Of a stretch of DNA of 22,886 nt, positions 1,446-22,156 are shown piece after piece (the stretch's first letter is position 1; each line of letters starts with the position of its first letter). A model generated the notes under the pieces. The model did no database searches. It was given only the letters and a program-made list of their open reading frames with translations, and had not been told where the DNA came from. The stretch comes from a virus. A program made the translations under genes and the position numbers. The stretch spans positions 1 through 22,886 of the IMG/VR virus record IMGVR_UViG_3300043772_002592; one strand, written 5' to 3'.

Positions 1446-1474
1446 TTGACAATCTTATTTTACGTGGTTAATAT
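1446..1474 (+). promoter_or_regulatory. Candidate sigma70-type promoter for the methyltransferase
   Basis: A perfect -35 hexamer TTGACA (1446-1451) is followed by a 17-base spacer and TAATAT (1469-1474, four of six matches to TATAAT). The expected start of transcription is at about 1481, practically at the ATG of the methyltransferase (1482). This would give a leaderless or nearly leaderless message. It is a sequence match only. In such A+T-rich DNA the weak -10 carries little weight; the exact -35 and the ideal spacing are the support. Confidence 0.4.
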
Positions 1475-1481
1475 ATTAAAT

Positions 1482-3867: not shown

Positions 3868-3897
3868 ATAACCTTTCTAATTTAGAACAATAAAAAT

Positions 3898-3922
3898 TCC
3901 CAAGAGTATAATGCTCTTGGGA
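3898..3922 (-). terminator. Rho-independent terminator after the 91-aa gene
   Basis: There is a perfect nine-base stem (plus-strand 3898-3906 and 3914-3922) around a seven-base loop. On the minus strand it is followed by AATTTTTATT. It lies 38 bases beyond the stop of the leftward gene at 3960-4235 and 31 bases before the start of the GT-A gene. It should therefore end transcripts from upstream and isolate the glycosyltransferase pair. It is the clearest hairpin terminator I see in the window. Confidence 0.75.
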
Positions 3923-3959
3923 TTAAGTTTATAACGTATTTAACATTTTGTCAAATATA

Positions 3960-4235
3960 TTAACTACGTAGTAAAGCTGGTGGATATTCCGCAACTACAA
4001 TTGCAGTGACTGCTTGTGCTAATTCATCATCTGTCCATTGACCTGCGGCATCATATGCATCACCTTGCCAAACAGTATACCAATTATGGGCATATGGATT
4101 GGTACTAATTTTGACCAATGTTTTTACTGTTTTGGCTACAGGATCATCTACTGCTTGTAGAATTTCTAGTTGATTTGTATTTGCAGCTTGTTGAATTTCA
4201 AGACTGCCTGATAAATTAATTATTGGATATGCCAT
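3960..4235 (-). CDS. Small protein of unknown function, 91 aa
   Basis: ATG at 4235, TAA at 3960-3962. The sequence opens with a hydrophobic/Ser stretch (MAYPIINLSGSLEIQQAANTN). The second half is Trp/Tyr-rich (NWYTVWQGDAYDAAGQW) and then helical (DDELAQAVTAIVV). There is no signal peptide, membrane segment or catalytic motif that I can name. It follows the sulfotransferase in the same direction with a 58-base gap and is closed by the terminator at 3898-3922. Length, good codon structure and clean boundaries support a real gene. Its position suggests a virion or modification accessory role, which is inference only. Confidence 0.62.
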   Translation of the reverse strand: MAYPIINLSGSLEIQQAANTNQLEILQAVDDPVAKTVKTLVKISTNPYAHNWYTVWQGDAYDAAGQWTDDELAQAVTAIVVAEYPPALLRS

Positions 4236-4293
4236 ATATTTTTAAATCTTAAATGTTACACAAATAAATATTGTTAAATTTTAAAAAAGTAAC

Positions 4294-5118
4294 TTAATAT
4301 TCATAATTAAATACTTTGTAAAACCAACTAAATTTATTATAAATATTATCGCAGTTATGTTTACCTAGTATATCAAGATAATCATTAGGTACTGGTTTGA
4401 TGACTTTTTGTATACTATGATCACCAAATGGAATATGCATTCTATCATCTTCAACAGTTTTTTGTTCTACATTATTAAAATCATGTTGATAAAATGGCAA
4501 TTCTAGATATTCATATACTCTTTGCATTTCACGTTGAGGATTACTGGTGAAATTTTCAAACTTAATAAACAAACACTTTTTGCTTAACTTTCTCATAATA
4601 GTGTCATACAACACATCCATACTTACAGCAAGTGGTGGTGCTTGTAATAAGAAGTAATCTATACGTTTATCTACAGTAGTATTACGTAATTCATTCCAAT
4701 TTTGTAGACCCGCATCAATATTTTGATGTTGTCTCCATTTCTTTTCCATACTTGCAACTACTGCTCTTAAATCTCTGACCATCACAATAACTTTTGGTTC
4801 TGGATAATACCAATTCAAAAAGTCATATGTAACACTCCAACCTCTGCTTTTATCAATTACATACTTTTTATCTGTAATAGCGTTAAAATATGCAAACATA
4901 CCTTCTTTACATAATGCTTTAAATGCGGGTTCTACTACTTTAATATCTTGAGCTTTAAACTCAATATTAGTGGAATAGATATTTCTAGCATTTAGAAAAA
5001 TTTCAATCAATCCACTTGTAGGCGTAGCATAAAAATCAGGATTTTGTGCCACCACATTTTGTAAAAGTGTTGAACCGGCTCTTGGAAGACTGCATTGAAA
5101 GAATATTTTTTCTACCAT
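4294..5118 (-). CDS. PAPS-dependent sulfotransferase family protein, 274 aa
   Basis: The N terminus CSLPRAGSTLLQN (9-21) is the 5'-phosphosulfate-binding loop of P-loop sulfotransferases. KYVIDKSRGW (85-94) follows, and KVIVMVRDLRAVVASM (109-124) supplies the Arg115 and Ser123 expected for 3'-phosphate binding. Length is normal for the family. It would transfer sulfate from PAPS to a hydroxyl or amine, most likely on a carbohydrate. No membrane segment is visible. It begins 39 bases after the chaperone-like gene ends, with a TATAAACA box 44 bases upstream of the ATG that may be a variant late promoter. Its neighbours (glycosyltransferases and FkbM) suggest joint glycan tailoring. Confidence 0.85.
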   Translation of the reverse strand: MVEKIFFQCSLPRAGSTLLQNVVAQNPDFYATPTSGLIEIFLNARNIYSTNIEFKAQDIKVVEPAFKALCKEGMFAYFNAITDKKYVIDKSRGWSVTYDFLNWYYPEPKVIVMVRDLRAVVASMEKKWRQHQNIDAGLQNWNELRNTTVDKRIDYFLLQAPPLAVSMDVLYDTIMRKLSKKCLFIKFENFTSNPQREMQRVYEYLELPFYQHDFNNVEQKTVEDDRMHIPFGDHSIQKVIKPVPNDYLDILGKHNCDNIYNKFSWFYKVFNYEY

Positions 5119-5157: not shown

Positions 5158-5721
5158 TTATTGTTTATAAGTTGGTACTGAAGGAAATGGTGGTAAGTTT
5201 ATATTAACTGAAGTTGGTATTGTTGGCCAAACAATTGTGGTTGGATCATCTGCATTTGGTAAATCACGTAGTTGTTGTCTAAAAGTTGCAAATTCAGCTT
5301 TTACTTGTGATGAAAATGGTACATCCAATAATTGTGTAAAGTCTGTTAATGATAAATACCTATCACGAATCATTCTTATTTGACTTTTTAAAATGTTTTT
5401 TCTTTGTGTTAATTCTACATCTGATAAAGATTGTAAAGTGTAACTTACACTGCAAGTTTTGTCTGTGATGTTTAATTTATTTGTTGGAACTAAACTTTGA
5501 CTGATGTTATAATCTGGTTCCGCATCAAAAATAGCTTTCCAGAATCCCAAATTAGGATTTTGTTGCCAAGTCAAATCTGGTAATAATTCAGGTGAACTTT
5601 CTTCTAGAATATTAAATCCACTGGTTGGTCCAAAGGTATCAGGCAATTGCATTGGTCCTTGAATTATAAAATAATTCTGACTATCTACCTTATTAACTAA
5701 AAAATATTGATTTGTACTCAT
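5158..5721 (-). CDS. Tail fibre/tail assembly chaperone-like protein, 187 aa
   Basis: Residues about 101-168 carry the pattern of phage tail assembly chaperone domains (Phage_tail_APC/XkdW-like). A helix with Arg, IRDRYLSLTDFTQLLDVP (118-135), is followed by FATFRQQLRDLPN (144-156) and VWPTIP (164-169), the usual TD-x-(n)-D-x-P ... YR-x-x-LRDLP ... WP arrangement. The first 100 residues are a beta-rich part with many aromatics (YFLVNK, FIIQGP). Such proteins often sit next to fibre genes and are thought to help fibre folding or assembly without always entering the virion. Here it is the last gene of the leftward fibre block and starts four bases after the jelly-roll gene ends. No Shine-Dalgarno sequence is visible. 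Confidence 0.62.
   Translation of the reverse strand: MSTNQYFLVNKVDSQNYFIIQGPMQLPDTFGPTSGFNILEESSPELLPDLTWQQNPNLGFWKAIFDAEPDYNISQSLVPTNKLNITDKTCSVSYTLQSLSDVELTQRKNILKSQIRMIRDRYLSLTDFTQLLDVPFSSQVKAEFATFRQQLRDLPNADDPTTIVWPTIPTSVNINLPPFPSVPTYKQ
5162..5169 (-). promoter_or_regulatory. Possible variant late promoter for the sulfotransferase
   Basis: The minus strand reads TATAAACA, one mismatch from the T4 late box TATAAATA, ending 44 bases upstream of the sulfotransferase ATG. That matches the distance of the two exact boxes at 12046 and 22518. It lies inside the last codons of the chaperone-like gene. A+T-only 8-mers are common here, so spacing is the only real support. Confidence 0.3.
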
Positions 5722-6492: not shown

Positions 6493-9400
6493 TTATAAGT
6501 TAGTGCTAACCAATGCTTGTGCCACAACAGTTCCTATCCAAACAGGTGTACCAGCACCACCTTGATAACTGGTTAACATAAATACGTCTGCAAAACCATT
6601 TGTAGCAGTTAATGTTGGAGCCACACCATTTGCCCATATTACGCTTGTAAATGTAATTGATGCCGTACCAGCGTATTTTACAACCAACATCAAAGTATTT
6701 ACAGATGGATTATTATCTCTGTTACTGTAACTTATTGTTGTTATAGTTGCACCACTTGTCATTGAAACTATGTGTACTGCTGCAGCTGCAACATTAAGTG
6801 TTAGTGTTTGATTTGTACCAGTAATACTTTGTGTAGTACTATTTTGTACAAATTTACCAGCACACTTTAGTGATCCACTAACATCTAGTAATGCGCTTGG
6901 AACCGTTGTACCTATACCAACATTTAAATTCGGATCAAAAGTCATTATTATAGCTTCACTGTTATTTGGCGCAGGATTTCCTGATCCTCTATAAAAATAA
7001 AATCTATTACTATCTGCTGCTGCTCTTGAACTCAATGACCAATAAATTCCAGTCCAACTAGTTTCATTAGCTACTGCTGTATGGCCAAATAAAACATCTG
7101 ATGGATAAGATGTGCCATTAGAATCCAATCTTACTGTAGCTCTATTTGCAATTGAAAAGTCTCTTCCTATTCTTACTCCTAGAGTATCTACTTTAGCAGT
7201 AGGAAATGTTGTACCTATACCCAAATTACCATCGGCTTTTATTCTAACTAATCCAGTAGTACCTCCTGTAGCTTTTTCTACATGTAAATTTTGACTCAAC
7301 ACTGTAGCTCCACCTGCATAATTTATATATGCTGCACCAGCAGAAGCGCCATTATAAAAATTTAATTGATCTCCACTTTGGACTCTTACAGTATAATTTG
7401 CATCATAAGATCCAAATATTATTTCACCTCCACTGCCTGCTCTTACATCTAATTTACCAACTGGATTTGTTGTACCAATACCAACATTACCGCCCATAAA
7501 TATTGCGGATGGTATTGATGTGGAACTTGTAACTTGTAATTTAGCTACTGGATTATTTGTACCAATACCCACTTTATTATTAACTACAACAAAATCGTTT
7601 TGACCATATTGTCCCGCAACAATTCTATCATCCGCAAATACTTCTAGTACAGGTAATCCAGCACTATTGTTTACACTCATCAAGCTATCACTTAAATCAT
7701 CAACCACACTAAATAATGTACCACTGGTACCATCTGTTCTTAATAATGTAGCACCAGCAGTTGTGGAATTTACATGCAATGAAGCAGATGGAGATGTGGT
7801 ACCAATACCTACATTTCCTCCATTCGTTATGCGCATTCTTTCAGTTTGTGAAGAAATATTTGTTGCACTTGATCTAAATATTATACCATTATAACCAGCA
7901 ATATTTGCTTGTAGAGTATTACTAAAATATATACCAACACTATCATTTGATGATCCATTATAAAGTTTATAACTGTCACTTAAACTTATATTTCCATTAA
8001 CTATTGATAGTTTATCTGTTACACTTGTTGTGCCTATACCTAAGTTTCCATTACTATTAATTAATGCATATACACTGGAACCACCTCTATTTCTAAAAAC
8101 ATGATTTGTATTATCAAAATAATTACTTGGATCACCGGCGTTACCTAAATATATTGCTATATTACCAGCAGGTTCAAATATTCTAAAATAATTAGTTGAT
8201 AAATCTAAAAATCTAAGACCACCCACGCCAATTGCACCATTTACATCCAATTTAAAAGCAGGACTTGTTGTACCTATACCAACATTACCACCACCATCTG
8301 CTTTGATAGTCATGCGGGTAGTCATTGTTCCCGCTACATTTTGTCTAAAATAGATATCACCAAATACTTGACCTGAACTTGTAGGATATGTATTATCAAT
8401 ATATGAAGTTGCTATATTTGCATTATAAAATAAATGTAATCCGTGAGTATCAGAATTATTATAACTTATTTTAATTCCATGGTCACTTGTACTTGTATTG
8501 TTAATTCTAACAAATGGATTAGCACCATGTACATTTAACAATGAAGAAGGACCAGCAGTACCTATACCAACGTTTCCTTTGAAATAAGAAGTACCTGTGC
8601 TAGCTTCTACGCTAAACAATAAGTCTGCACCTGTACTATAAATTCCAAATTTTGGTTGTACGCCACTTCCATAGTCAGCGGCGTTTGGAATATGAACACT
8701 CAATACTCTATCTGTATAAGCTCCACCTCTACCAATAAAATAATAATTATTAGCAGATGAAGTAGTACTTTGTACATCAGGAAATCCTATACCAGCCCAT
8801 TTTCCTATAGTAGAAGTGTCTGAAACTCTCAATACGGAAGAGAAAGTATTTTGTGAACCATCACCTACTATTGTTAATCTTCCATTTGGTGATGTTGTGC
8901 CTATACCAACATTACCATTAAATTTAATTCTAACTTTTTCTGATCTGACGGTGCCAGCATCTGATGTGTAGAATACAAGATCACCGGATTCAGCCCCATT
9001 CGTATTTGTTATAACATGTGCGCCTAGTCCGCCATATTCATGTTCATTACCAGCACTATCATTTAATGTAAAATATAAGTTGGAACCATTTCCAACTGTA
9101 CCATCATTCATATGCAAATATAAAAGCCCATAATTCGCAGCCGTACCAGAATATCCAGATTTTCTCAGTCTAAATGGTACAGGTGTGGTAGTTCCTGTAT
9201 GTTCAAATAGAGTTGTTACATCATTTCTATTACCCACATCAACATAAAATGCATTACCTGTACCACCATTGTTGTTAACCACAAATTTAGCACCAGGACT
9301 AGTTGTGCCTATACCCACGTTACCATTGCCTTTGATACGCATGGTTTCTGTTTTACCATTAATGGTTTCACTTGAACCATTTTGGAATATATGGTCTTGA

Positions 9401-12006
9401 TATGTACCATATATCATACTATCAGATCCAGCTACAACATCACCTGTATAATTTCTGAATACTATGTAACCTCCAGTATTGTTATCCAAGAATGTTAGAC
9501 CAGCATAAGTTCCATTGTCAGCGGTATTTCTAAAAGTTATATAATTGCTTGTATTAGAATCAATTAGCAAATTTGTGCCAGTTGTAACTGTTCCAGTGCC
9601 AGTTGGTGCAGAAGCACGAATATTTAATAATGCACCTGGTGCAGTTGTACCAATACCTATGTTTGCTGATGCTTGTAAACTTGCAAGTCTAAATATGCCA
9701 TCCGCAGCTGGTATACCAGATGCACTATAGTCACCCCAATTTAATATACCATTTAAATTCATCCAGAGACTGTTAGAAACTCTGTTTGCCCAGTGGAAAT
9801 TAATATTAGGACCATACTTATCAGCTGATTGAGCATTTCCTACCAAGTCTCTTTCTCTTATGCTTATTGGACTATTTGACCAATCTTCATTATCTGTTAA
9901 ATTTGTATAAGACACCAACATTCTGGTGCTTGTACCGCCACTAAATCCTATATCTCCAACCACTTGTAACTTATTAGCCGGAGCAGTTGAACCTATACCA
10001 ACATTACCACCACTTAATATTGTAAATAACGGCGTGCCGTTATGAATGTGTTGAAAAGCTTTGTTACTATCAGTATAAGTGTACAATGCGCCAGCTAGAG
10101 CGCCATTAGTGGTATCAGATGTTGTATTTTTAAGCAAATATGCATTACTCGTACCATCATCAAATCGAATATATGAAAAGGAACCACCACCATTTAAGTG
10201 TATCCATGGATTGCTAGCTTTATATATGGTAAGAGGCGCACCAGGAGTTGTAGTACCAATACCAACGTTGCCTGTACTTATGATACGCACTCTTTCAACA
10301 CCATTAGTATAAAATCTTGTATTACCATGTGTGAAATTAGCATTATTTTTTGTTAATTGTCCTATTTCTAGAGATCCACCAGCTGCACCATATGTTCCAG
10401 GTGTATAATAAATTCCAGCTTGAGCATCCCAATCCCAATTTGAACCTAAAATCAAACCATTTGTAGCATTGTTACCAATCATCCACAAATTACCATCATT
10501 GTATCCCAATAAATCAAATCCGTAATATCTGACACGTTCATAACCTTGTGTCAATTTAGCTACAACAACATTGCTTGATCCAGCTCCAATTTCAAATTTA
10601 AAATTAGGAACGGTTGTGCCTATGCCAACGTTACCATTATCAAGATTAACTATTGACCCAGTAGTTATTGTTGTTGTACTGTTAAATTTAGCAACATAGT
10701 TTGTTAAACCTGTCACAGTTACACTTGTTCCACTTGATCCAGATGTGCCTGAACTGCCACTGGTTCCGCTTGATCCACTTGATCCACTTGTACCACTACT
10801 TCCACTTGTGCCTGAACTACCACTGGTTCCGCTTGATCCGCTTGTTCCGCTTGATCCACTTGTTCCGCTTGATCCGCTTGATCCAGATGTGCCTGAACTA
10901 CCACTGGTTCCGCTTGATCCGCTTGATCCGCTTGTTCCGCTTGATCCACTGGTTCCACTTGATCCGCTTGATCCACTTGTTCCACTTGATCCACTGGTTC
11001 CACTTGATCCGCTTGATCCAGATGTGCCTGAACTACCACTAGTTCCGCTTGATCCACTTGTTCCACTTGATCCACTGGTTCCACTTGATCCGCTTGATCC
11101 AGATGTGCCTGAACTACCACTAGTTCCGCTTGATCCACTTGTTCCACTTGATCCAGATGTGCCTGCTGCGGTTGCGGTGGATTTATAAACAACACCTGTT
11201 GTATTATCTACTGTTAGATAGTATCCGGTTGCATTAGTAGTTAGACCGTCAATTTCAACTGAACCACTAACATGTAATTTAGCTGTTGGATTATTTGTGC
11301 CAATACCTACTCTATTGTTTCTTAAAACAAAGTCATTTGTACCATATTGACCCATTACAACTCTATCATCCGCAAATACTTCCAATACAGGTAAACCTGC
11401 ACTGTTGTTTACACTCATCAAACTGTCACTTAAATCATCAACTACACTAAATAATGTTCCATTTGTACCATCTGTTCTCAATACAGTAGCACCTGAAGTG
11501 GTTGAGTTTACATGCAATCTAGCAGCAGTAGTAGTTGTTCCAATACCAATGTTTCCACTACTAGAAATAAACAATCTAGTAGCACTACCAGCAGTAAAAG
11601 ACAATCCAACATCATTAGTTCCTAAAATAGACTGTGTACTATTTCCCCATGTAAGACTATTTCCAGAATCTATATATAAAGTACCATTATTAACATAAGC
11701 AGATCCAACTACTTGAAATTTGAATATTGGACTTGTAGTGCCTATACCAACGTTTGTACCATTATCATACACTAAACTATTAGCTATAGTGGAATTTCCT
11801 GTAAATTTACTTAAATAGTTACTAGTAGGTTGTACAGATGTAACAAATGCACCTCCACCACCTGTTGATATTGCACTTGCTGATAGTGGACCTGTAAATA
11901 ATATGGTTGATGCATCAATCAACCTCATTGAATTAGTTACTTGTTCACCTTTAACTGTGAAAAAATCAATTTTACCAACTGATGGATTTATTATGATATC
12001 TGGCAT
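6493..12006 (-). CDS. Giant tail fibre with NVGIGT repeats and collagen-like segment, 1837 aa
   Basis: This is an extended fibre protein. The N terminus (1-80) is unique. Seventeen copies of a G-N-[VIL]-G-I-G-T-x-x-P-x-x-K-L motif follow, starting near residues 85, 152 and 232 and then fourteen more after the array. Each begins a beta-rich segment of about 50-120 residues. Residues 282-428 are 49 uninterrupted Gly-X-Y triplets, all GTS or GSS. An 83-codon segment is duplicated (residues 164-246 and about 1410-1492). The C-terminal cap (about 1735-1837) has VHIVSMTSGATITTI, WANGVAP and WIGTVV, resembling beta-structured fibre tips. The endosialidase-type S74 chaperone that usually closes such repeats is not visible. 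Fibres of this kind are normally homotrimers; receptor contact at the tip is inferred. An exact TATAAATA lies 40 bases upstream of the ATG (12004-12006). Confidence 0.88.
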   Translation of the reverse strand: MPDIIINPSVGKIDFFTVKGEQVTNSMRLIDASTILFTGPLSASAISTGGGGAFVTSVQPTSNYLSKFTGNSTIANSLVYDNGTNVGIGTTSPIFKFQVVGSAYVNNGTLYIDSGNSLTWGNSTQSILGTNDVGLSFTAGSATRLFISSSGNIGIGTTTTAARLHVNSTTSGATVLRTDGTNGTLFSVVDDLSDSLMSVNNSAGLPVLEVFADDRVVMGQYGTNDFVLRNNRVGIGTNNPTAKLHVSGSVEIDGLTTNATGYYLTVDNTTGVVYKSTATAAGTSGSSGTSGSSGTSGSSGTSGSSGSSGTSGSSGTSGSSGTSGSSGTSGSSGSSGTSGSSGTSGSSGSSGTSGSSGTSGSSGSSGTSGSSGTSGSSGSSGTSGSSGTSGSSGTSGSSGTSGSSGTSGSSGSSGTSGSSGTSGSSGTSVTVTGLTNYVAKFNSTTTITTGSIVNLDNGNVGIGTTVPNFKFEIGAGSSNVVVAKLTQGYERVRYYGFDLLGYNDGNLWMIGNNATNGLILGSNWDWDAQAGIYYTPGTYGAAGGSLEIGQLTKNNANFTHGNTRFYTNGVERVRIISTGNVGIGTTTPGAPLTIYKASNPWIHLNGGGSFSYIRFDDGTSNAYLLKNTTSDTTNGALAGALYTYTDSNKAFQHIHNGTPLFTILSGGNVGIGSTAPANKLQVVGDIGFSGGTSTRMLVSYTNLTDNEDWSNSPISIRERDLVGNAQSADKYGPNINFHWANRVSNSLWMNLNGILNWGDYSASGIPAADGIFRLASLQASANIGIGTTAPGALLNIRASAPTGTGTVTTGTNLLIDSNTSNYITFRNTADNGTYAGLTFLDNNTGGYIVFRNYTGDVVAGSDSMIYGTYQDHIFQNGSSETINGKTETMRIKGNGNVGIGTTSPGAKFVVNNNGGTGNAFYVDVGNRNDVTTLFEHTGTTTPVPFRLRKSGYSGTAANYGLLYLHMNDGTVGNGSNLYFTLNDSAGNEHEYGGLGAHVITNTNGAESGDLVFYTSDAGTVRSEKVRIKFNGNVGIGTTSPNGRLTIVGDGSQNTFSSVLRVSDTSTIGKWAGIGFPDVQSTTSSANNYYFIGRGGAYTDRVLSVHIPNAADYGSGVQPKFGIYSTGADLLFSVEASTGTSYFKGNVGIGTAGPSSLLNVHGANPFVRINNTSTSDHGIKISYNNSDTHGLHLFYNANIATSYIDNTYPTSSGQVFGDIYFRQNVAGTMTTRMTIKADGGGNVGIGTTSPAFKLDVNGAIGVGGLRFLDLSTNYFRIFEPAGNIAIYLGNAGDPSNYFDNTNHVFRNRGGSSVYALINSNGNLGIGTTSVTDKLSIVNGNISLSDSYKLYNGSSNDSVGIYFSNTLQANIAGYNGIIFRSSATNISSQTERMRITNGGNVGIGTTSPSASLHVNSTTAGATLLRTDGTSGTLFSVVDDLSDSLMSVNNSAGLPVLEVFADDRIVAGQYGQNDFVVVNNKVGIGTNNPVAKLQVTSSTSIPSAIFMGGNVGIGTTNPVGKLDVRAGSGGEIIFGSYDANYTVRVQSGDQLNFYNGASAGAAYINYAGGATVLSQNLHVEKATGGTTGLVRIKADGNLGIGTTFPTAKVDTLGVRIGRDFSIANRATVRLDSNGTSYPSDVLFGHTAVANETSWTGIYWSLSSRAAADSNRFYFYRGSGNPAPNNSEAIIMTFDPNLNVGIGTTVPSALLDVSGSLKCAGKFVQNSTTQSITGTNQTLTLNVAAAAVHIVSMTSGATITTISYSNRDNNPSVNTLMLVVKYAGTASITFTSVIWANGVAPTLTATNGFADVFMLTSYQGGAGTPVWIGTVVAQALVSTNL
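7531..7779 (-). repeat. 249-bp internal duplication, promoter-distal copy
   Basis: It encodes LHVNSTTAGATLLRTDG through to KVGIGTNNPVAKLQV and pairs with 11269-11517 in the same gene. The 83 codons align without gaps and most residues are identical, including the block VVDDLSDSLMSVNNSAGLP. Confidence 0.85.
10723..11163 (-). repeat. Collagen-like Gly-X-Y array, 49 triplets
   Basis: These 441 bases encode only GTS and GSS triplets (residues 282-428 of the 1837-residue fibre). Codon use is uniform, with units spaced in multiples of 9 and often 27 bases. A perfect 54-base direct repeat lies at 11021-11074 and 11102-11155. This uniformity points to recent expansion by slippage or recombination. 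Long open frames on the opposite strand here (Pro/Leu/Asp-rich) are a by-product of the repeat. Confidence 0.9.
11269..11517 (-). repeat. 249-bp internal duplication, promoter-proximal copy
   Basis: It encodes LHVNSTTSGATVLRTDG through to RVGIGTNNPTAKLHV (residues 164-246) and pairs with 7531-7779. The copies lie on either side of the collagen-like array and most of the repeat region, so recombination between them would delete about 3.7 kb in frame. Confidence 0.85.
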
Positions 12007-12045: not shown

Positions 12046-12053
12046 TATTTATA
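12046..12053 (-). promoter_or_regulatory. T4-type late promoter candidate for the 1837-aa fibre
   Basis: The minus strand reads exactly TATAAATA, 40 bases upstream of the ATG at 12006. It overlaps the stop codon of the upstream jelly-roll gene. The 42-base gap between genes (12007-12048) is one of the few in the leftward block, consistent with a new transcript start. Exact matches also occur by chance inside coding regions, so position and spacing carry the argument. Confidence 0.5.
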
Positions 12054-14091
12054 GACCAAATCTACCTTTTGTAGCATTGTAATTTTGTAAAACTTGAGCG
12101 GCAGATAATGCAATATTGTAGCATCTAGCTGATGCTATTCTACAACTTTGATATCTACCCAAGTGATTTCCACCAATTACTAAATTTTGACCTGACGTTG
12201 TTGTGCCTGTAATTTTTGTTTTTGATGCTCTTACTATTCCATCAACATAAATATGCATATTGGACCCGTCAACGACTCCAACCAAATGATGCCATACACT
12301 ATCGCAAATACTTGATCCATAAACTGCATCGTCTGCCGTTCCTAAACTATTTCTTTGGCCGAAAAATACATTTCCAGTATCAAGAATATGTAAACTTGTG
12401 TATGGAGTAGTACCCACTGCGCCATAATTAGAAATTATAGCAGTATTGCTATTAAATCCGCCGGGAGAATTATCCCAAAACCAAGCTTCCCACGTTATTT
12501 GTGCGTTGTCTGTGTTTTGATTAAGATCAGTCTGAATATATCCATTTACACCATCAAGAATAAAATCTCCACCGTAAAGCGATGAATATGTTACTCCTCC
12601 AGTTAATGTTCCAATTTTACCATTTCCACTTACATCATAAAATGTTGTTCCAGCGCCGCCATAACTATATATATTACCAGCATCAAGATTTAATACTAAT
12701 CCTTGTTGTACAATTGTATTTGCAAATCTAGATTTTTGAGCTTCATAATTTTGAAGTATTTCTGTAGCGGATAAATTTCTATTATATATTTTAACAGAAC
12801 CTATTTTTCCATTCCATATAGACGTTGGAGTTGTAAACCTAGACCCAATAGTTACATTATCAGTATTATCATTAACAGCATTAGTAGGATTTACAACTGT
12901 TCCAGATACTTGAGATCCATTTATGTAAATTTTTATATCTGAAGATCCTGATGCTCTTAAATGTGTCGCGCTAATGTGATACCAAGTATTTAAAGCGAAA
13001 GTATAACTAGCATCTACATATGGACCGCCTCCAGAACCTACGTCAAAATAAACTTTGTTATTTACATAATGAACCAATAAACAATACTCTTCATTTGTAT
13101 CAGAAACGCCTTTGCCAACTATTGCTCCATAATAATTCATCGATGAAGAAATCAAAACCCACGCCTCAACAGTTAATGCTGAAGTGCTTTTTAATGAAGA
13201 TGAATTAGGAATAACTATATAATCATTAGAACCATCAAATAAAAAAGCTCCTTTATTGTAGTAATCAAAAAGAGGCATATTTGATCCGGTTCCATTACCA
13301 AACAGTCCATTATCATCATTTCCTGATAAATCAATTATACTTCTATCAGTATTAGATATACCCCATTTTTGTCCAAGATATGTGTGGACTAATCTTCTTT
13401 CTGTGGTTGTTAGAAGCCTATTAAATACAATAATTTCTGCTGCTTCGCAAGTAGAAACTTCGCTACTGATATTGACGCCTAGCCCAAGCGGCCCTGCGTT
13501 TGCGCCATTAGAATTTGTAGTTATTGCAGTTCCATTACTATATAAATTTGCCAAATCAGTTGAGCTACCACTCCAATCTCCCATATACATTCTCCAAGTA
13601 TTATCTGCTGGATAACCTTGATATTGGACCCATCCTTCTGCATAATATTGATTATAATGACCTCCCCAATGCCCTAATAGCCAATTTGTTCCAGTCGCTC
13701 CTGTATATAGAGTACTTAAAACCCTGTTAGGATTTATTCCTGATAATCTAGTCACACAAAATATTGTATAAGCAGAAGTAACTAAATTAATTGAAGAATT
13801 CCATATTTGTTGACTTGTAGTGCATGCTATTACTTTTCTTGAATTTAAAAAAGCATTTCTAGTTGGTCCAGCAGAAACAGGAACCATATGATAATTAAAT
13901 CCGCTTTTATCACGCCATTGACTCACTGTGGTTCCTGAACTATAACTAAATGTAGTATCATCAGCAGCATCCATCCACATAAGCAAGCCGCCTTTCACTG
14001 GCAAATCAGTTGGATATGATTTATTTTGTGATGCATCTAAACACATCACTAAACCATCTTGCACTATTTTTGGTGAATATTGTAAAGCCAT
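12049..14091 (-). CDS. Triple LamG-type jelly-roll adhesin, 680 aa
   Basis: Three concanavalin/LamG-like domains are visible. The sequence opens with IVQDGLVMCLDASQNKSYP (9-27), the normal first strand of such a domain. A complete jelly-roll (about 34-246) then interrupts: LLMWMDAADDTTF, VSQWRDKSG, closing with EIIVFNRLLTTTERRLVHTY. The first domain resumes at IIDLSGNDDNGLFGNG (about 251) and closes with GKIGSVKIYNRNLSATEILQ (about 430-450). A third, uninterrupted domain runs from IVQQGLVLNLDAGN (about 459) to the end, with IYVDGIV and the closing ALSAAQVLQNYNATKG. These folds bind carbohydrates in many proteins, so host-surface binding is likely. It starts three bases after the previous gene, without a Shine-Dalgarno sequence. 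I see no catalytic motif. Confidence 0.8.
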   Translation of the reverse strand: MALQYSPKIVQDGLVMCLDASQNKSYPTDLPVKGGLLMWMDAADDTTFSYSSGTTVSQWRDKSGFNYHMVPVSAGPTRNAFLNSRKVIACTTSQQIWNSSINLVTSAYTIFCVTRLSGINPNRVLSTLYTGATGTNWLLGHWGGHYNQYYAEGWVQYQGYPADNTWRMYMGDWSGSSTDLANLYSNGTAITTNSNGANAGPLGLGVNISSEVSTCEAAEIIVFNRLLTTTERRLVHTYLGQKWGISNTDRSIIDLSGNDDNGLFGNGTGSNMPLFDYYNKGAFLFDGSNDYIVIPNSSSLKSTSALTVEAWVLISSSMNYYGAIVGKGVSDTNEEYCLLVHYVNNKVYFDVGSGGGPYVDASYTFALNTWYHISATHLRASGSSDIKIYINGSQVSGTVVNPTNAVNDNTDNVTIGSRFTTPTSIWNGKIGSVKIYNRNLSATEILQNYEAQKSRFANTIVQQGLVLNLDAGNIYSYGGAGTTFYDVSGNGKIGTLTGGVTYSSLYGGDFILDGVNGYIQTDLNQNTDNAQITWEAWFWDNSPGGFNSNTAIISNYGAVGTTPYTSLHILDTGNVFFGQRNSLGTADDAVYGSSICDSVWHHLVGVVDGSNMHIYVDGIVRASKTKITGTTTSGQNLVIGGNHLGRYQSCRIASARCYNIALSAAQVLQNYNATKGRFGL

Positions 14092-14094
14092 ATA

Positions 14095-15399
14095 TTATAT
14101 ATATTGTGTTTTTGCTGATTGATAATTAGCAGAGACTTCTGATGCAGAGATCTCTCTATTATACATTCTTATTTCACCCATTTCTCCATTCCAATGCGCT
14201 GTACCAGACCCACGATAACCAAGTCCTCTAGGAGTTGTACCAGATCCAATGCTAGTTACATTTTGACGACCATTTGCAGCTTGTAATGTTGATGTGGTTG
14301 ATTCTAAATTTCCGTTCAAATAGACTTTTATGGTACTTCCACTCCATGCGTATACTACATGATACCATACGTTTGCGGAAATGGTTGATGTAGATCTAGC
14401 ACCAGTATTAAATCCACCATTATTATCAAACCAGCCACTACCATTTCCCAAATCGCTTCCAAAAGCAACTGTACCGCTGCTAGCATATAAAGAAAACCAT
14501 ACAACATTTTCTTGAATATAAATTTGCTGATAGTTACCTGACGTAGGTAAACTATAACACTTTAACCAAAATTCCCATGTACCGGCTGTTTGTCCCGAAT
14601 TGATATTTGATGCAAAATTGATATAAGAACTCGACGCACTATCAAAAACAATTGGGCCTCCTTTAATTCTCGGAAGACCGAAATTTATATGAGCTACTTG
14701 AGAAGGATTTGTTGTATAGTTTTCATATGCCCATCCAAAAGCATTTCCTTGTCCCAATCCCGGCTGTCCAATTAATATCCACTCAGGAGCAGCTATATAA
14801 TCAGATTCTAAAAATCCAGCAGGTTTTCCTAAATCAGTTAAGATATCTCTTACTGTGGAATTGTAAGTATCTGCTCTATGACTGCCCATTACTATGAAAG
14901 TAGCTTTTGGATAATAAGATTTTATTGTATTATAATTAGATACAAATAACGCCAATTCAGTAGTAGTTATTCCGCTACCTGAATAATTATCATAACAATG
15001 ACCATTTAATCTTAATCCTCCAAAAAAACTATCAACAACCCAAGCTCCACCACTTTCGTCCCACACCCACAAATGTAATGCTCTACTTGCATCATAAGTT
15101 TTAGTTCCTGACCTAACATTTAATCCCGGTGTTATACCCTGTCTATTCGCTGCGTCTCCACCATAAGAGCCTTCTGGATAATCAATAGCAAATGCAGTAT
15201 AATAAGTTTTATTTTTATTATATATTTTATTTGTAAATGGATAATTCACGCCTGAAATTAAATCAACAACCCCATCAGTGCTTCCGTTATATAATCCACA
15301 TCCTAACTGTGTCATTTTTCTGCGACTAGTAGCAAACGGATCAAAGCTTAAAATAAGTCCTGATTTAACTATTAACGGCCCATTATTTACTGTACTCAT
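14095..15399 (-). CDS. Adhesin with ILEI/FAM3-like domain and LamG jelly-roll, 434 aa
   Basis: The start IVKSGLILSFDPF (10-22) is the first strand of a LamG-type domain. Residues about 105-228 resemble the ILEI (FAM3/POMGNT1-stem) domain in order: RALHLWVWDESGGAWVVDSF, then ELALFVSNYNTIKSYYP, FIVMGSHRAD, VRDILTDLGKPAG and EWILIGQPGLGQGN. The C-terminal part (about 247-434) is a jelly-roll: TWEFWLK, NVWYHVVYAWSG, IKVYLNGNLES and closing GEMGEIRMYNREISASEVSA. The ILEI fold in POMGNT1 binds sugar, so a glycan-binding role in host recognition is plausible. The ILEI assignment rests on pattern matching by eye. It starts four bases before the next upstream gene's stop codon, and a GGA lies 11 bases before the ATG. 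Confidence 0.75.
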   Translation of the reverse strand: MSTVNNGPLIVKSGLILSFDPFATSRRKMTQLGCGLYNGSTDGVVDLISGVNYPFTNKIYNKNKTYYTAFAIDYPEGSYGGDAANRQGITPGLNVRSGTKTYDASRALHLWVWDESGGAWVVDSFFGGLRLNGHCYDNYSGSGITTTELALFVSNYNTIKSYYPKATFIVMGSHRADTYNSTVRDILTDLGKPAGFLESDYIAAPEWILIGQPGLGQGNAFGWAYENYTTNPSQVAHINFGLPRIKGGPIVFDSASSSYINFASNINSGQTAGTWEFWLKCYSLPTSGNYQQIYIQENVVWFSLYASSGTVAFGSDLGNGSGWFDNNGGFNTGARSTSTISANVWYHVVYAWSGSTIKVYLNGNLESTTSTLQAANGRQNVTSIGSGTTPRGLGYRGSGTAHWNGEMGEIRMYNREISASEVSANYQSAKTQYI

Positions 15400-15402
15400 A
15401 TT

Positions 15403-16725
15403 TTATATTCCATAAGTTTTACGGGTTGCATTGAAATTTTGCAATACTTCTGCGGCAGTTAATAGCCTTCCATAAACCAGTACTTGACCTATTTCTCCTG
15501 TAAAATATTCCCCTCCAGCACCATAAGTTCTTCTTCCTATATTAAAATAAGAAGTACTGGTTGAAACATTCAAAAATGGCGCTCCGGAAGAACTACCATT
15601 ATTTGAAGTGGTTTCTAGAACTCCATTTATATAAATCTTTAAATTCAAATAATTATCATCAAAAACAGCGGTGATATTAGTCCAAACTCCATTTGCATAG
15701 TAATTACTACCTTTTCTTATTACTGCCCTTTGACTTGCTGAAGCGGTATAAGATTCTGCAATTAAAGATTCATCTGCGTAACCACCTGTCCAATCTGCTG
15801 TTATTTCTATACTACCAAAATTTGTATTTCCATCATCTCCCCAACCAACCAGAACTCCATTTTGATTTGTTGAAGTTTTAAACCAAATTGAAATAGATCC
15901 TAAATTAAGCCAAAACGGATCTGTCGCAGTATAAGTTTTTGCTATAATTCTATTACTAGAAGCACCATTAAAAAAATATCCAGTATTATTAAAAGATACA
16001 TTTGTCAAATCTGCATTAACATTATTTCCACTTATATCTAATAAACCACCACCTGCAGCAACAGTATTAGCAGATCTATTAGAGCCAACAACAAATGGCG
16101 TACAATATGTTTTAGATTCATACTGCATACCTGTAACATACATTGATTTATAAGGTAAAGATGGAGTATAAGATGTTTGCACATCCAAACCAACTGCTCC
16201 AACCCAACCGCCTGTTCTGCCGCCTATATTAGCCCCAACACGATACCATCCTAGCCAACCAGATACTTTTGTTATAAACGCATTTGATACTCTTGCTCCT
16301 GTAGACACAACCGTGCCAGTTACTAAGTTAAATATAGCTGTGCTACCGCCATCTCCTAACATTCCAATCGCAAAATTAGTAATGCTTCCATTAACTGAAT
16401 ATACATAACAAGAAATACTATTCCCTCCTTCACCACTTCCACCAAAACGACTTAAATGATGATATCCATCAGTTCCAGATTCTGTTAATAATGTCGCTCC
16501 AGTTCCTATTGGAGTTTGTAATGTAGAATTATATGATTTAGTAAATCTGGTAGGATTGCTTGTCCATTCATTTTCATAGCCAGCGTATGAAAGTCCAGAA
16601 AAATCAGTAGTATTTGAAACTATATTTGTAGTAGCTTCTCCTCTAAAGCTTTTTGAAAATTCACGGTTATAATATAACTGTAAATCTTTTTTTACTATAC
16701 CTCTATTTGCGTGTTGAATTGACAT
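15403..16725 (-). CDS. Adhesin with inserted beta-sandwich and LamG jelly-roll, 440 aa
   Basis: After MSIQHANRGIVKKDLQLYYN (first LamG-type strand, 1-20) comes an inserted segment of about 200 residues. It resembles phage carbohydrate-binding-like sandwiches: GYHHLSRFGGSGEGGNSISC, then AIFNLVTGTVVSTGARV and GWLGWYRVGANI, ending CTPFVVGSNRSA. The LamG-type domain resumes at GGLLDISGNNVNADLT (about 225) with SISIWFKTS, LKIYINGVLETT and closing GEIGQVLVYGRLLTAAEVLQ, ending in ATRKTYGI. The opening and closing match its two leftward neighbours, so the three are paralogues. The likely function is host-surface binding as part of, or attached to, a tail fibre. No catalytic residues are recognisable. 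Confidence 0.78.
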   Translation of the reverse strand: MSIQHANRGIVKKDLQLYYNREFSKSFRGEATTNIVSNTTDFSGLSYAGYENEWTSNPTRFTKSYNSTLQTPIGTGATLLTESGTDGYHHLSRFGGSGEGGNSISCYVYSVNGSITNFAIGMLGDGGSTAIFNLVTGTVVSTGARVSNAFITKVSGWLGWYRVGANIGGRTGGWVGAVGLDVQTSYTPSLPYKSMYVTGMQYESKTYCTPFVVGSNRSANTVAAGGGLLDISGNNVNADLTNVSFNNTGYFFNGASSNRIIAKTYTATDPFWLNLGSISIWFKTSTNQNGVLVGWGDDGNTNFGSIEITADWTGGYADESLIAESYTASASQRAVIRKGSNYYANGVWTNITAVFDDNYLNLKIYINGVLETTSNNGSSSGAPFLNVSTSTSYFNIGRRTYGAGGEYFTGEIGQVLVYGRLLTAAEVLQNFNATRKTYGI

Positions 16726-16729
16726 ATTA

Positions 16730-19700
16730 TTATACTTCAGTAATTAATTCTGGTACATCACTTCTGATTGCGGTAAAATCCCAGAAGAATTCATAAGTTT
16801 TATTAGATTCAAGCAGTGATTTATCATAAGCAACAACAAAGTAATTTTCAGCCACATTAATATCATCTATATATAGTGTTTTACCGCACTTTATTCCAGT
16901 CAATTGTACATTTACACTTTCATGTCTTGCCAATTTACAAATATAATCTGGTAATTGTACTATACATCTACCATTAACTAGTTTATCTTTACCAGTTAAT
17001 CTTATACCATGATATGGACTTTCCAAACTACCATATACCAACTTCTTGCCTGTTTTAGTAGGATGATCAATTTTGAAACTCTTGGTTGAAGCAGCAAAAC
17101 TACCATTTACTTCTAATTTATAAGCCGGTGCGGTTGTGCCAATACCAATGTTACCATTATCTTGTATTACCATGTGCCATGTACTACCGGCATTATTTCC
17201 GATGTACATTTTTGTAGCATAATAATCAAATTGGAAACCATCACCTCCTGATTCTGCTGCAAATAACAAATCACCACCACTTATTGTTATGTTATTGTTT
17301 GTAAATCCAGTTGCTAAAATTGTACCATTAACCTCTAATTTTTGACTAGGACTACTTGTGCCTATACCAACATTACCATTAATATCTATACGCATTCTTT
17401 CACTTACAAGCGCAGTAGCTTGTTGACCAACATAAAATGCCATACCATTAGTTCTATCAGTTGCAATAGTACCTACAAAATAGTTAAGATCAGTAAATTG
17501 TAATTGTGTACCTTGTGCATTATTTCCACTATTAGCAATTCTCAATATAGATTTACCCGTACCAGAAGTATCTGTATTCCATGTACGCACCAATTGGTCA
17601 CCGGTATTACTAGATTGTATATCCAATACACCACTGGGCCCTGCTGTACCTATACCAACATTACCAGATTTATTTATGACCATGTTCAAGTCCCAACCAG
17701 AACCATTATAATCATAAAAAGCTATTCTACCAGCGTCAGCAGAAGCATTGTCAGATCTACCAATTATGTGCACCTGACCTGGATAACTAACGTGATCTTT
17801 ACCCCACAAATAAATACTTGGTTGCGTACTATCAGTGACATGAGTGAATGCTGTTACACCAGTTGTGGTACCTTCGCCAAAAACACTATTTAGTTTAATA
17901 TTACCGGCAACATGTAGTAGCTGTGAAGGACTACTTGTGCCTATACCAAGATTGCCATTTGCATCTATAATTACAGACTGAGTTGTTCCTCTATAAAATG
18001 CTATTTTACCAGCGGCCCAAGTGTTTACTTCCATTTGTCCACTTGAAACACTCATTCCTCCAATTGCACCACTAGCTTCATCATAAACTCTTAATTTGAC
18101 ATTTGAACCAGCAGAATTACTATAAGTACCACCCAAACTAATTACTTCAGTAGCTGACGTTTGTACACCTGTTGTGTTACCTAATTGAAGTCTATAAACA
18201 GCATTTGTAGTGCCAATACCAACATTGCCTTCTACAATTAAACCATTGGTTGGTGCTGCGGTTGAACCATATGTACTACCTATACTTGTATTACCAAATA
18301 CACTCAATTTACTACCTGTAGCACTTAGATTTCCTATAGATACAAAGTTTGTAGTTAAATGTGTAGCATTATCATATATCACTCTAAATCTAGCTACTCC
18401 TGAAGCATTTTTTAGATCAAAATAATCACCGTTATTTGAATTTTGAACATAAACACCATTGCTATCTATACCAAAAGAACCTGATCTTCCAAGTGAAGTA
18501 TTATTTACTGATACTATTGCAGTGCCAGCAGATCCAGCAATTTCTAATTTACTATTTGGTGTTGTAGTACCTATACCAATATTACCAGCACTTGTAATAC
18601 GCATTCTTTCATTTGATCCATTTGTATAGAATTTGTATGAACCTCCACCACCTCCTAAATAAAAATTAAAATCCGGCCTTGTTGATGCAGAATTTCTATT
18701 AATATATTCTATATATCCGCCATTCAAACTTGATTCAGCAGGTCCAAATTCAAAATTTTCATTTGATCCATTTGATATGACTAACTTTGTTAATGGACTA
18801 CTTGTTCCTATACCAATGTTACCATTATCAAATATTGATCCAGTAGCCACCGTAGAAGATGATGCAAACTTAACAACATAATTTGTTACACCAGATACAC
18901 TAACGCTAGTACCACTTGATCCTGAAGTGCCTGAACTGCCGCTGGTTCCACTAGATCCGCTTGATCCGCTTGTTCCACTACTACCAGAACTTCCACTAGT
19001 GCCTGAACTTCCTGAGGTACCAGATGATCCGCTACTTCCACTAGTCCCAGATGATCCACTTGAACCGGATGTACCGGAACTTCCGCTTGTACCAGAACTG
19101 CCTGATGATCCACTTGTTCCACTACTACCAGAACTTCCACTAGTTCCGCTTGATCCACTTGAACCGGATGTACCAGAGCTTCCACTTGTACCAGAACTGC
19201 CTGATGATCCACTTGTGCCTGAACTACCACTGGTTCCGCTTGTTCCACTAGAACCGCTTGTACCAGAACTTCCACTGGTTCCTGATGTGCCTGAACTACC
19301 AGATGTACCACTAGATCCAGAACTGCCTGATGTACCAGATGATCCACTTGTTCCACTAGAACCAGATGTTCCTGAACTACCACTTGTTCCTGAACTGCCT
19401 GAAGAGCCACTAGTACCAGATGAACCGCTTGTGCCGGAAGATCCACTTGTTCCTGAAGATCCTGATGTGCCTGAACTTCCAGAAGATCCTGAAGTACCAC
19501 TTGAACCACTACTACCACTAGTGCCTGAACTGCCTGATGAACCGGAAGTACCGCTTGAACCGGATGTTCCTGAACTGCCACTTGTTCCTGAAGATCCAGA
19601 TGATCCGCTTGTTCCACTTGAACCAGATGTACCACTTGAACCACTACTTCCACTGGTTCCTGAAGATCCGGATGACCCACTCGTTCCACTACTACCAGAA

Positions 19701-20710
19701 CTTCCAGACGTACCACTTGAACCGCTTGTTCCAGAACTGCCTGATGTACCTGAACTTCCACTTGAACCGCTTGTTCCACTACTACCAGAACTTCCACTTG
19801 TACCAGAGGTACCTGAACTTCCACTTGTACCAGATGAACCAGAGGTACCTGAACTTCCACTGGTTCCTGAACTACCTGATGATCCGCTTGTGCCGGAAGA
19901 TCCACTTGATCCGGATGTTCCAGAACTACCTGAACTTCCACTGGTTCCTGAACTACCTGATGATCCACTAGTACCAGATGAACCGCTTGTGCCTGAACTA
20001 CCACTTGTTCCTGAACTGCCTGAAGTGCCTGACGAACCGGAACTTCCAGATGTACCGCTACTTCCACTAGTACCAGAGGAACCAGATGTACCACTTGGTG
20101 TTATTGCATAACTTGCTGATAATGCTTGAACAGCGTAACTAGATGTACCTTCAAATCCAATTCCATTTGTTATATTAGATGTATATTGACTTGCACTGAC
20201 ATTGCCATATACTACAAATGTAGATCCACTTTGAAATGCTATACTTGAAGTAATACTGTTGCTGCTACTTATTAAAGGTATAAATCCTGCGGTTAATGAT
20301 TGTTCTAAATCAGGACCTAATATTACTTGTCTTGAATATCCTGAATCACTGCTACTAACAAAGAAATAATTATTTTGACTGTCCCATAGTAGTGAGCTTA
20401 ATGTATTTGAACCACTATCATACATTTCAATACCAGCATATCTTACATGTGGACTTAATGCATTTAATGTAATAATGTTATCAGTTACAATAAAATGACT
20501 GGAAGTGATATAAATGTTACTTGCACTATAATTTGTAGCATATAAAGTATCTGTTACTAGTAAGTTACTAGCAGTAAGTCTAGTTAAATTATAAATGCCA
20601 CTTGGATTTAGATAACTACTAGTTAATGCATTACTTGAAGTTAAATCGGAAACTTGAGTAGCAATTAAACTACCTTCCAAAAGTAAAGATCCTGATAATA
20701 ATAATGGCAT
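16730..20710 (-). CDS. Giant tail fibre with 132-triplet collagen-like shaft, 1326 aa
   Basis: The N terminus (1-206) is Ser/Thr-rich, beta-type fibre sequence (LTSSNALTSSYL, ASNIYITSSHF). Residues 207-602 are 132 continuous Gly-X-Y triplets, all GTS or GSS. The array runs into VSVSGVTNYVVKFASSS and then seven G-N-[VIL]-G-I-G-T repeats. The C-terminal cap (about 1203-1326) begins STKSFKIDHPTKTGKKLVYG and continues IQLP-like VQLPDYICKL and VNVQLTGIKCG. It matches a cap found on many phage fibres, often after an S74 chaperone, but no S74 motif precedes it here. The cap and NVGIGT style suggest a trimer with a long flexible shaft. It starts three bases after the 480-residue gene and is probably in one late operon with it. 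Confidence 0.88.
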   Translation of the reverse strand: MPLLLSGSLLLEGSLIATQVSDLTSSNALTSSYLNPSGIYNLTRLTASNLLVTDTLYATNYSASNIYITSSHFIVTDNIITLNALSPHVRYAGIEMYDSGSNTLSSLLWDSQNNYFFVSSSDSGYSRQVILGPDLEQSLTAGFIPLISSSNSITSSIAFQSGSTFVVYGNVSASQYTSNITNGIGFEGTSSYAVQALSASYAITPSGTSGSSGTSGSSGTSGSSGSSGTSGSSGTSGSSGTSGSSGTSGSSGSSGTSGSSGSSGTSGSSGSSGTSGSSGSSGTSGSSGTSGSSGTSGSSGTSGTSGSSGSSGTSGSSGSSGTSGSSGTSGSSGTSGSSGSSGTSGSSGSSGTSGSSGSSGTSGSSGTSGSSGSSGTSGSSGTSGSSGTSGSSGSSGTSGSSGSSGTSGSSGSSGTSGSSGTSGSSGTSGSSGTSGSSGSSGTSGSSGTSGSSGTSGSSGTSGSSGSSGTSGSSGTSGTSGSSGTSGSSGTSGTSGSSGTSGSSGSSGTSGSSGTSGSSGSSGTSGSSGSSGTSGSSGSSGTSGSSGTSGSSGSSGTSGSSGSSGTSGSSGTSGSSGSSGTSGSSGSSGTSGSSGTSGSSGTSVSVSGVTNYVVKFASSSTVATGSIFDNGNIGIGTSSPLTKLVISNGSNENFEFGPAESSLNGGYIEYINRNSASTRPDFNFYLGGGGGSYKFYTNGSNERMRITSAGNIGIGTTTPNSKLEIAGSAGTAIVSVNNTSLGRSGSFGIDSNGVYVQNSNNGDYFDLKNASGVARFRVIYDNATHLTTNFVSIGNLSATGSKLSVFGNTSIGSTYGSTAAPTNGLIVEGNVGIGTTNAVYRLQLGNTTGVQTSATEVISLGGTYSNSAGSNVKLRVYDEASGAIGGMSVSSGQMEVNTWAAGKIAFYRGTTQSVIIDANGNLGIGTSSPSQLLHVAGNIKLNSVFGEGTTTGVTAFTHVTDSTQPSIYLWGKDHVSYPGQVHIIGRSDNASADAGRIAFYDYNGSGWDLNMVINKSGNVGIGTAGPSGVLDIQSSNTGDQLVRTWNTDTSGTGKSILRIANSGNNAQGTQLQFTDLNYFVGTIATDRTNGMAFYVGQQATALVSERMRIDINGNVGIGTSSPSQKLEVNGTILATGFTNNNITISGGDLLFAAESGGDGFQFDYYATKMYIGNNAGSTWHMVIQDNGNIGIGTTAPAYKLEVNGSFAASTKSFKIDHPTKTGKKLVYGSLESPYHGIRLTGKDKLVNGRCIVQLPDYICKLARHESVNVQLTGIKCGKTLYIDDINVAENYFVVAYDKSLLESNKTYEFFWDFTAIRSDVPELITEV
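18905..20092 (-). repeat. Collagen-like Gly-X-Y array, 132 triplets
   Basis: These 1188 bases encode only GTS and GSS triplets (residues 207-602 of the 1326-residue fibre), without proline or charged residues. Synonymous codons vary much more than in the 10723-11163 array, so the DNA is less repetitive than the protein. That fits an older array held by selection on the protein. Confidence 0.9.
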
Positions 20711-20713
20711 AAG

Positions 20714-22156
20714 TTATGTTATTCTTATAAGTATAAAGTTTCCGTTTCTATATAACCCGCCAAGTGGTACTCCACCAAGAGCTGCTGCAGCATCATCAAT
20801 AAATTCAAGAGAAGATGATACTTGTGTTAATATAACTATTTGATTTAATGGATTAACATAACTAGAAGTATCAGCATTTAATGCCCAACTGCTTGTTATT
20901 GGATATGTACTACCTGTTATTAAATCATTATTAACTGATGAACTTATTACTTGTAATCCGCTTCTGGATGCAATTGCATATCCACTCGCAGAAATAGGAA
21001 AATTAATTCTAGTTACGTTAGGATTTACAAGTGAAATGTTCTGTGGAATTATTTGATTAAAATTTATGTCATATGTTTGTATTAATATTGGTTTTATATT
21101 AAGGCTATGAGTAAATTCCCAAATTGAACTACTATAAAAAGATGAACTAACCGCATTAGTAATATTTATACCAACTGCATTTAAACTGTAACTGGCAGTT
21201 ATTGCCCAACTGCTTGTTATTGGATATGTACTTCCAGTCGTTAAATTTGCACCTCCAGTTGTTACTAATCCTGTTGTAGATGACAACAAATATCTAAATT
21301 GACCCTCAGATCCTGACGGCGGAGCTGATGTAAAGTTTAAAATTGATCCTGTAGTGGTGTAATCAGTTGATGGTTTTTTTACTAAACCATTAATTGTTAC
21401 TAAAATATCATAATCTTGTAATACACTTTGAGTTAATGCATATTGAGTAGTACTACCATCACCTGTAAAATATTGAGCATTAAGTGAAGATGTTAATATA
21501 CTAATATTAGCAGAGCTATAAAATCTTCTAACTTCTAATTCTAATGCTGCTGGTGGTATTGAGGTGAGTGTCAGTGTGGTACCAAAAACACTATAATCAG
21601 TTGATGGTTCTTGTTCAAGACCATCTAAAAATACCAATAATTGAGTGGGATCATAAGTAGAAAAACTTAGTGTATATGTGTTGGATACGCCATCTGTTAC
21701 AAAATTATCTACTGATGATGAAAAATTGATGTCAATTATACTAGAAGTTGATACAAATATATTACCCCCACCTGCAGAAGCAGCATTTAATGCATATGAA
21801 GCAGTTAATGCATATGATGAACTATTAGAATTAACTGAATAACTACTTGAATATGCAAATGCACTACTTAATGCATATGATGCACTTATAGAATTGAATG
21901 CCCAACTACTAGTAATTGGATATGTAGATCCTGTAATTATAGATGACCCAGCATTTAATGCATATGAAGCAGTTAATGCATATGATGAACTATCAATATA
22001 ACCAATAAATTTACTTGCACTTATTGTAGATGCTGTTATTGCACCAAGGAAATTGCTACTACTAACAACAGTAAATTTGTTGCTAGCAGTCACTTCACCC
22101 CTAAATACATAAGGTTCACATGCTATTTTTTTGCCTATGAAAGTAAAATCAGACAT
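20714..22156 (-). CDS. Tail fibre protein with ASYALNA repeats, 480 aa
   Basis: The N-terminal 140 residues are repeats of SSYALTASYALNA type, and TGSTYPITSSWA occurs three times in the protein. Two consecutive copies of a beta-sandwich-like module follow: YTLSFSTYDPTQLLVFLDGLEQEPSTDY...LTLTSIPP and YALTQSVLQDYDILVTINGLVKKPSTDY...LNFTSAPP. Each has the FLDG/INGL-x-(2)-PSTDY ... F-T-[SA]-x-PP pattern common in phage fibres. The C terminus reads EFTHSLNIKPILIQTYD, then FILIRIT. It is probably the connector or proximal part of the fibre, but this is inference from its place before the giant fibre. It begins two bases after the 104-residue gene ends. Confidence 0.82.
   Translation of the reverse strand: MSDFTFIGKKIACEPYVFRGEVTASNKFTVVSSSNFLGAITASTISASKFIGYIDSSSYALTASYALNAGSSIITGSTYPITSSWAFNSISASYALSSAFAYSSSYSVNSNSSSYALTASYALNAASAGGGNIFVSTSSIIDINFSSSVDNFVTDGVSNTYTLSFSTYDPTQLLVFLDGLEQEPSTDYSVFGTTLTLTSIPPAALELEVRRFYSSANISILTSSLNAQYFTGDGSTTQYALTQSVLQDYDILVTINGLVKKPSTDYTTTGSILNFTSAPPSGSEGQFRYLLSSTTGLVTTGGANLTTGSTYPITSSWAITASYSLNAVGINITNAVSSSFYSSSIWEFTHSLNIKPILIQTYDINFNQIIPQNISLVNPNVTRINFPISASGYAIASRSGLQVISSSVNNDLITGSTYPITSSWALNADTSSYVNPLNQIVILTQVSSSLEFIDDAAAALGGVPLGGLYRNGNFILIRIT
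20883..21231 (-). repeat. 28-bp direct repeats coding TGSTYPITSSWA
   Basis: Positions 20883-20910 and 21204-21231 are identical over 28 bases. A third, diverged copy lies at 21900-21939. All encode the YPITSSWA module of the 480-residue fibre protein. Confidence 0.75.
21781..21993 (-). repeat. 45-bp perfect direct repeat in the 480-aa fibre gene
   Basis: Positions 21781-21825 and 21949-21993 are identical over 45 bases and encode SSYALTASYALNA segments. Identity at the DNA level, 168 bases apart and in frame, suggests recent duplication or gene conversion. Confidence 0.8.

Follow-up and report, generated by a model that had tools for sequence, protein, structure and literature searches.

Tail Genes of the Window

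The window considered here is a complete stretch of 22,886 bases from a virus record, and the gene of interest encodes a putative tail adhesin of 434 aa (14095..15399, minus strand). On the evidence of the open reading frame, a Laminin_G_3 match and a full-length structural model, this protein is built from a LamG jelly roll into which an ILEI-fold domain has been inserted. Pfam recognizes LamG alone in the protein (Laminin_G_3, PF13385; residues 256-423). The score of 65.1 bits, against a curated cut-off of 27.6, places it in the family, and a ConA-like jelly roll is present. Two other LamG-containing genes lie on either side (12049..14091 and 15403..16725, both minus strand). Further along are collagen-like fibre proteins of 1837 aa (6493-12006) and 1326 aa (16730-20710), a tail-fibre N-terminal domain (20714-22156) and a tail assembly chaperone (5158-5721). 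This setting supports an adhesin role for the 434-aa protein.

Both long fibre proteins carry collagen-like GTSGSSG arrays, which are followed by many IGIGTTSP repeats. Adjoining the tail genes is a group of enzymes (1446-5118), comprising an FkbM-type methyltransferase (1446-2135), two glycosyltransferase-like ORFs, one without a Pfam match (2132-3094) and one with a weak Glycos_transf_2 match (3091-3867), and a sulfotransferase (4294-5118). Possible substrates of these enzymes are glycans, carried either by the Ser/Thr-rich collagen-like fibres or by the host surface.

Fold and Ancestry of the Inserted Domain

An earlier note on this DNA had proposed an ILEI/FAM3-like domain at residues 105-228. 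This core stretch maps correctly to 14716..15087 on the minus strand, and the described order of motifs is found in the ORF: SRALHLWV, a helix, FIVMGSH, VRDILTDLG and WILIGQPGLGQG. Residues ~106-217, most of the core stretch, align with animal ILEI sequences in the profile alignment. The proposed bounds were nevertheless too narrow. Based on structure, profile comparison and the match of the Pfam ILEI family PF15711 to the relative L032, the domain lies at 14662..15240 on the minus strand (residues about 54-246), and the structural match covers residues about 54-248, which correspond to matched residues 7-201 of a model beginning at residue 48. In addition, the FAM3 "YF-D" element had been set at FF 125-126, while the profile alignment moves it to Y136-D137, past an insertion of ~10 residues. 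The latter placement is plain from relatives without the insertion (L032: WVKTTVYDTYPYASEV).

The structure of residues 48-261 (window 14617-15258) was predicted with AlphaFold2 from 9 sequences. The model has a mean pLDDT of 70.7 (80-94 across most of its core) and a pTM of 0.77; confidence is moderate, one of the five models was clearly better than the others, and the training set of the program may include FAM3 structures. When the model was compared with the PDB by Foldseek, ranks 1-16 were all chains of FAM3B, FAM3C or the POMGNT1 stem (best E 9e-4), and nothing else was convincing. Structural alignment with VIA-align gave Z 13.3 for both POMGNT1 (142 residues, 2.9 Å) and FAM3C (155 residues, 3.4 Å), followed by FAM3A (13.2), FAM3B (12.5) and TMEM2 (10.0). 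For this predicted model, a beta-beta-alpha sandwich of the FAM3 type, Z drops from 8.9 within the FAM3/POMGNT1/TMEM2 group to 3.4 for the first unrelated chain.

Sequence profiles lead to the same assignment. Aligned by hhalign against FAM3A/B/C and POMGNT1, with the FAM3C and POMGNT1 rows taken from PDB sequences, the phage family scored 39.7-40.2, and the aligned region of 90 columns runs between Arg106 and the Gly-rich strand. The maximum among 300 column shuffles was 20.8, and the reversed alignment scored ~13. Moreover, PF15711 matches L032, which shares 53% identity with the window domain and lacks the ~10-residue insertion, over positions 1-89 of 90 (E 3.8e-5 within the L032 record, 0.02 in the full library). 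The L032 score of 19.5 or 15.8 bits is under the curated cut-off of 27 bits. Because PF15711 matches below the cut-off occur in 7 of 14 control genomes, a sub-threshold match is not trusted alone; that of L032 was counted because it is in register on the family's domain. The window protein itself does not match PF15711 in Pfam, either whole or as the domain alone, and neither form has an ILEI match in Pfam, NCBIfam or PHROGs. Searches of PDB sequences with the protein, a 9-row profile and L032 returned no FAM3, only noise or LamG. The phage domain is consequently treated as a divergent ILEI relative outside PF15711 as that family is defined. Overall, the ILEI/FAM3 fold put forward in the earlier note is borne out by both sequence profile and predicted structure, whose agreement makes homology to the FAM3 proteins and the POMGNT1 stem computationally well supported.

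Insertion into the LamG Jelly Roll

The position of the domain was analyzed with a LamG profile built from nine uninserted LamG genes near the relatives' loci. Such genes encode ~200-245 aa, and many begin like MALxxxPxIVxxGLVLxLDA. On the 434-aa protein the profile aligns as two pieces. Residues 4-24 (15328..15390, minus strand), the first strand of the jelly roll, match profile positions 3-23, and residues about 246-433 (14101..14664, minus strand), the remainder, match positions 55-226; the latter piece is also covered by the Pfam and structural matches. Taken by itself, the first piece is a weak match (5.7 bits), yet it is in order. Against the profile, a score of 11.1 bits was obtained for the N-terminal 60 residues, compared with a maximum of 5.5 among 354 scored shuffles, and the same segment in relatives of like layout reaches up to 24.5 bits.

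In the full-length model, ConA-like structures mostly align from residue ~8-13 to ~432, with ~190-200 residues aligned, as expected for a single jelly roll that combines the N-terminal strand with the C-terminal part. Together, the two-piece profile match and the full-length model indicate that the ILEI domain interrupts the LamG jelly roll after its first strand, and this conclusion is computationally well supported. The coexistence of ILEI and LamG domains in one tail-type protein had been predicted correctly, although as a fusion rather than an insertion. Neurotoxin binding domains are also among the ConA-like matches of the full-length model; they share the common jelly-roll fold only, and toxicity is not implied.

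Relatives and Module Exchange

Searches of IMG/VR recovered 8 loci at first and 20 in a second round, with several contigs recurring, and three additional contigs were found later. Relatives from the first two rounds were 44-71% identical to the window domain. No relatives of the ILEI-type domain were present in genome_contigs, and accordingly neither a prophage nor a bacterial source emerged. Likewise, tblastn with the ILEI part among 50,697 phage records found no relatives in isolated phages, and the full protein matched isolated phages through its LamG half only, in Synechococcus phages. The relatives' contigs measure about 6 to 311 kb, and three large ones encode the T4-type major capsid protein gp23, which marks part of this phage group as T4-like. 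For the phage of the window itself, the sequence is too short to decide. On one contig (G003, which carries locus L011), the gp23 match at 109554-110927 contains one in-frame TAA, which could stem from an intron, from a break in the frame or from an error in sequencing.

The layout of N-terminus, ILEI-type domain and LamG is common to each of the 18 sequences aligned at full length, the window protein included. The parts have diverged to different extents, with mean identities of 57% for the ILEI part and 26% for LamG. Between L005 and L006, the N-terminal part is 98% and the ILEI part 93% identical, against 34% for LamG, a contrast that suggests exchange at the domain border. Similar breaks in LamG, with other inserts, occur in many neighbouring genes of the relatives. 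Within the window, the 680-aa protein (12049..14091) has a LamG split by an inserted second LamG and followed by a third; its residues 1-27, 32-231, 251-456 and 459-680 match profile positions 1-27, 10-214, 32-226 and 8-228, respectively. The 440-aa protein (15403..16725) combines a C-terminal LamG (residues 225-440, profile positions 30-228) with an unassigned upstream domain of ~200 aa, and its layout, with a presumed N-terminal strand, is apparently that of the 434-aa protein. Modular reshuffling among uncultivated phages is thus shown computationally.

A more far-reaching interpretation, which is somewhat less likely than not, is that the LamG roll serves as a socket for unrelated lectin-like modules, which are plugged into roughly one and the same loop after strand 1 and swapped from phage to phage. 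The modules would be the ILEI domain, another LamG and an unassigned domain, and the ILEI module would carry a new ligand site of invariant Arg, Asp, His, Glu and Asn residues. The phages concerned are uncultivated, apparently mostly from freshwater and in some cases T4-like.

Possible Functions of the Domain

It seems likely that the protein is a tail adhesin in which a divergent ILEI/FAM3-fold domain, carried on a loop of LamG, binds the host surface. The LamG roll would act as a scaffold presenting the ILEI domain outward, and the domain would bind a ligand on the host cell surface, most likely a glycan. Binding would probably involve its own conserved polar residues rather than the Arg-Asp-Arg site of POMGNT1. 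By analogy with its animal counterparts, the fold favors a binding role in general terms only. A candidate for a different ligand site is the set of polar residues that are invariant in the 17 aligned rows, R106, D137, H174, E206, N227 and H237. One observation counts against this reading. LamG is the less conserved of the two parts, and such conservation of the ILEI part would be unusual if it were a rapidly evolving receptor binder.

High conservation across phages would instead fit a fixed internal partner, as expected if the domain were a structural spacer or made protein-protein contacts within the tail rather than binding a receptor. This alternative also draws on the viral fold matches, which include T4-like gp35 hinge connectors. 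Against it, the domain lies within a series of LamG lectin-like proteins with inserts that vary from gene to gene, and close relatives can have near-identical ILEI parts next to differing LamG parts. The domain is rather unlikely to be purely structural, although this alternative retains some weight. The gp35 matches themselves come from BFVD, where the ILEI model matched long-tail-fibre hinge connectors of phages RB16, PS2, Acj9 and Pet-CM3-4 at the fold level only; from the models, an ILEI-like domain in this structural tail part is possible.

Less probable still is binding of beta-linked GlcNAc or similar monosaccharides exactly as in the POMGNT1 stem. The shared fold speaks for it, given that FAM3A, FAM3C, Fam3L2 and the POMGNT1 stem are sugar binders and that GlcNAc is bound by FAM3C, FAM3A and the POMGNT1 stem (PMC9802357). 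In POMGNT1 the sugar is contacted by Arg129, Asp179 and Arg207 (PMC9802357; contact residues also given in PMC9437275). The first of these corresponds to Arg106 of the phage family, which is invariant in 17/17 aligned rows. The Asp179 column, however, holds Arg or Ala, and the Arg207 column holds Ala, Ser or Trp, with Arg in L030 and L012 only. Fam3L1, a worm FAM3-like domain without Asp179 and Arg207, bound neither GlcNAc nor mannose (PMC9802357). Since only one of the three contacts is kept, the aligned residues do not support POMGNT1-style GlcNAc binding by the phage domain, and the sugar-binding part of the earlier proposal is weakened, its Arg129 equivalent standing and the other two falling away.

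That the likeness is convergence or a prediction artefact, with the domain unrelated to ILEI, is hardly credible: despite the failure of direct Pfam searches with the window protein and of PDB searches by single sequence and 9-row profile, profiles built without structure bring both families into register with scores far higher than those of shuffles, and a relative is detected independently by PF15711. The phage ILEI domain is thus most likely a host-surface-binding module, and one that is probably glycan-directed with a different site.

With this domain, a further branch of the FAM3/POMGNT1 fold is known from phage tails, one whose sequence group goes undetected by Pfam and was found in uncultivated viruses only. 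A lectin-like module within a lectin-like scaffold is also a concrete layout that could allow phages to alter their receptor specificity. Should the phage domain bind a glycan, its site could be compared with that of the animal proteins, with implications for the original role of the ILEI fold.

Comparison With Known Systems

The idea of an ILEI domain in phages is not new, as tail proteins of this kind have been reported (PMC6145125; PMC9437275). One close parallel is CBM_1 of the TP-778L/9851 Tal of Streptococcus thermophilus phages, which has the POMGnT1-stem/ILEI fold (PMC9437275). Like the window domain, it is an ILEI fold in a phage adhesion protein, and the Tal protein further contains collagen-like linkers and additional carbohydrate-binding modules (PMC9437275). 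The two domains also share a similar SRxxxxWV strand. In contrast to the window domain, CBM_1 is strung along the Tal chain of a siphophage rather than nested in LamG. It keeps equivalents of both Arg129 and Asp179 (PMC9437275), while the window family keeps that of Arg129 only. PF15711 recognizes the TP-778L CBM_1 above its cut-off (32 bits for the excised stretch), and the hhalign score of CBM_1 against the window family, 17, is within the shuffle range.

In Basilisk-like Bacillus phages, the tail fibre protein (gp51 in Basilisk) was annotated in 2018 with an ILEI domain (PMC6145125). The likeness, drawn from its description, is an ILEI domain in a phage tail fibre protein; there the domain lies near the fibre C-terminus, and the paper mentions no LamG (PMC6145125). 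A protein of Dickeya phage JA13 is named "Putative ILEI domain-containing protein" in UniProt. Among phage-tail Laminin_G_3 proteins (PF13385), the host jelly roll of the window is a clear member (65.1 bits), differing from the neighbouring uninterrupted form of ~200-245 aa. A literature search for ILEI-type nesting in LamG found nothing relevant.

Of the eukaryotic relatives, the POMGNT1 stem (5GGF and related entries) shares the fold, with 17% identity in the VIA-align match, and Arg129, but it belongs to a Golgi enzyme whose Asp179 and Arg207 are not conserved in the phage family. FAM3A/B/C (ILEI/PANDER) share the fold (VIA-align Z 12.5-13.3) and the order of motifs. They are secreted animal proteins without LamG, are 10-13% identical to the phage domain and possess conserved cysteine pairs. 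The paired cysteines are absent from the window domain, where Cys135 is the sole cysteine in residues 54-246. Relative to all of these systems, the new elements are the divergent sequence group and its position inside LamG, together with two lost sugar contacts and the signs that modules have been exchanged.
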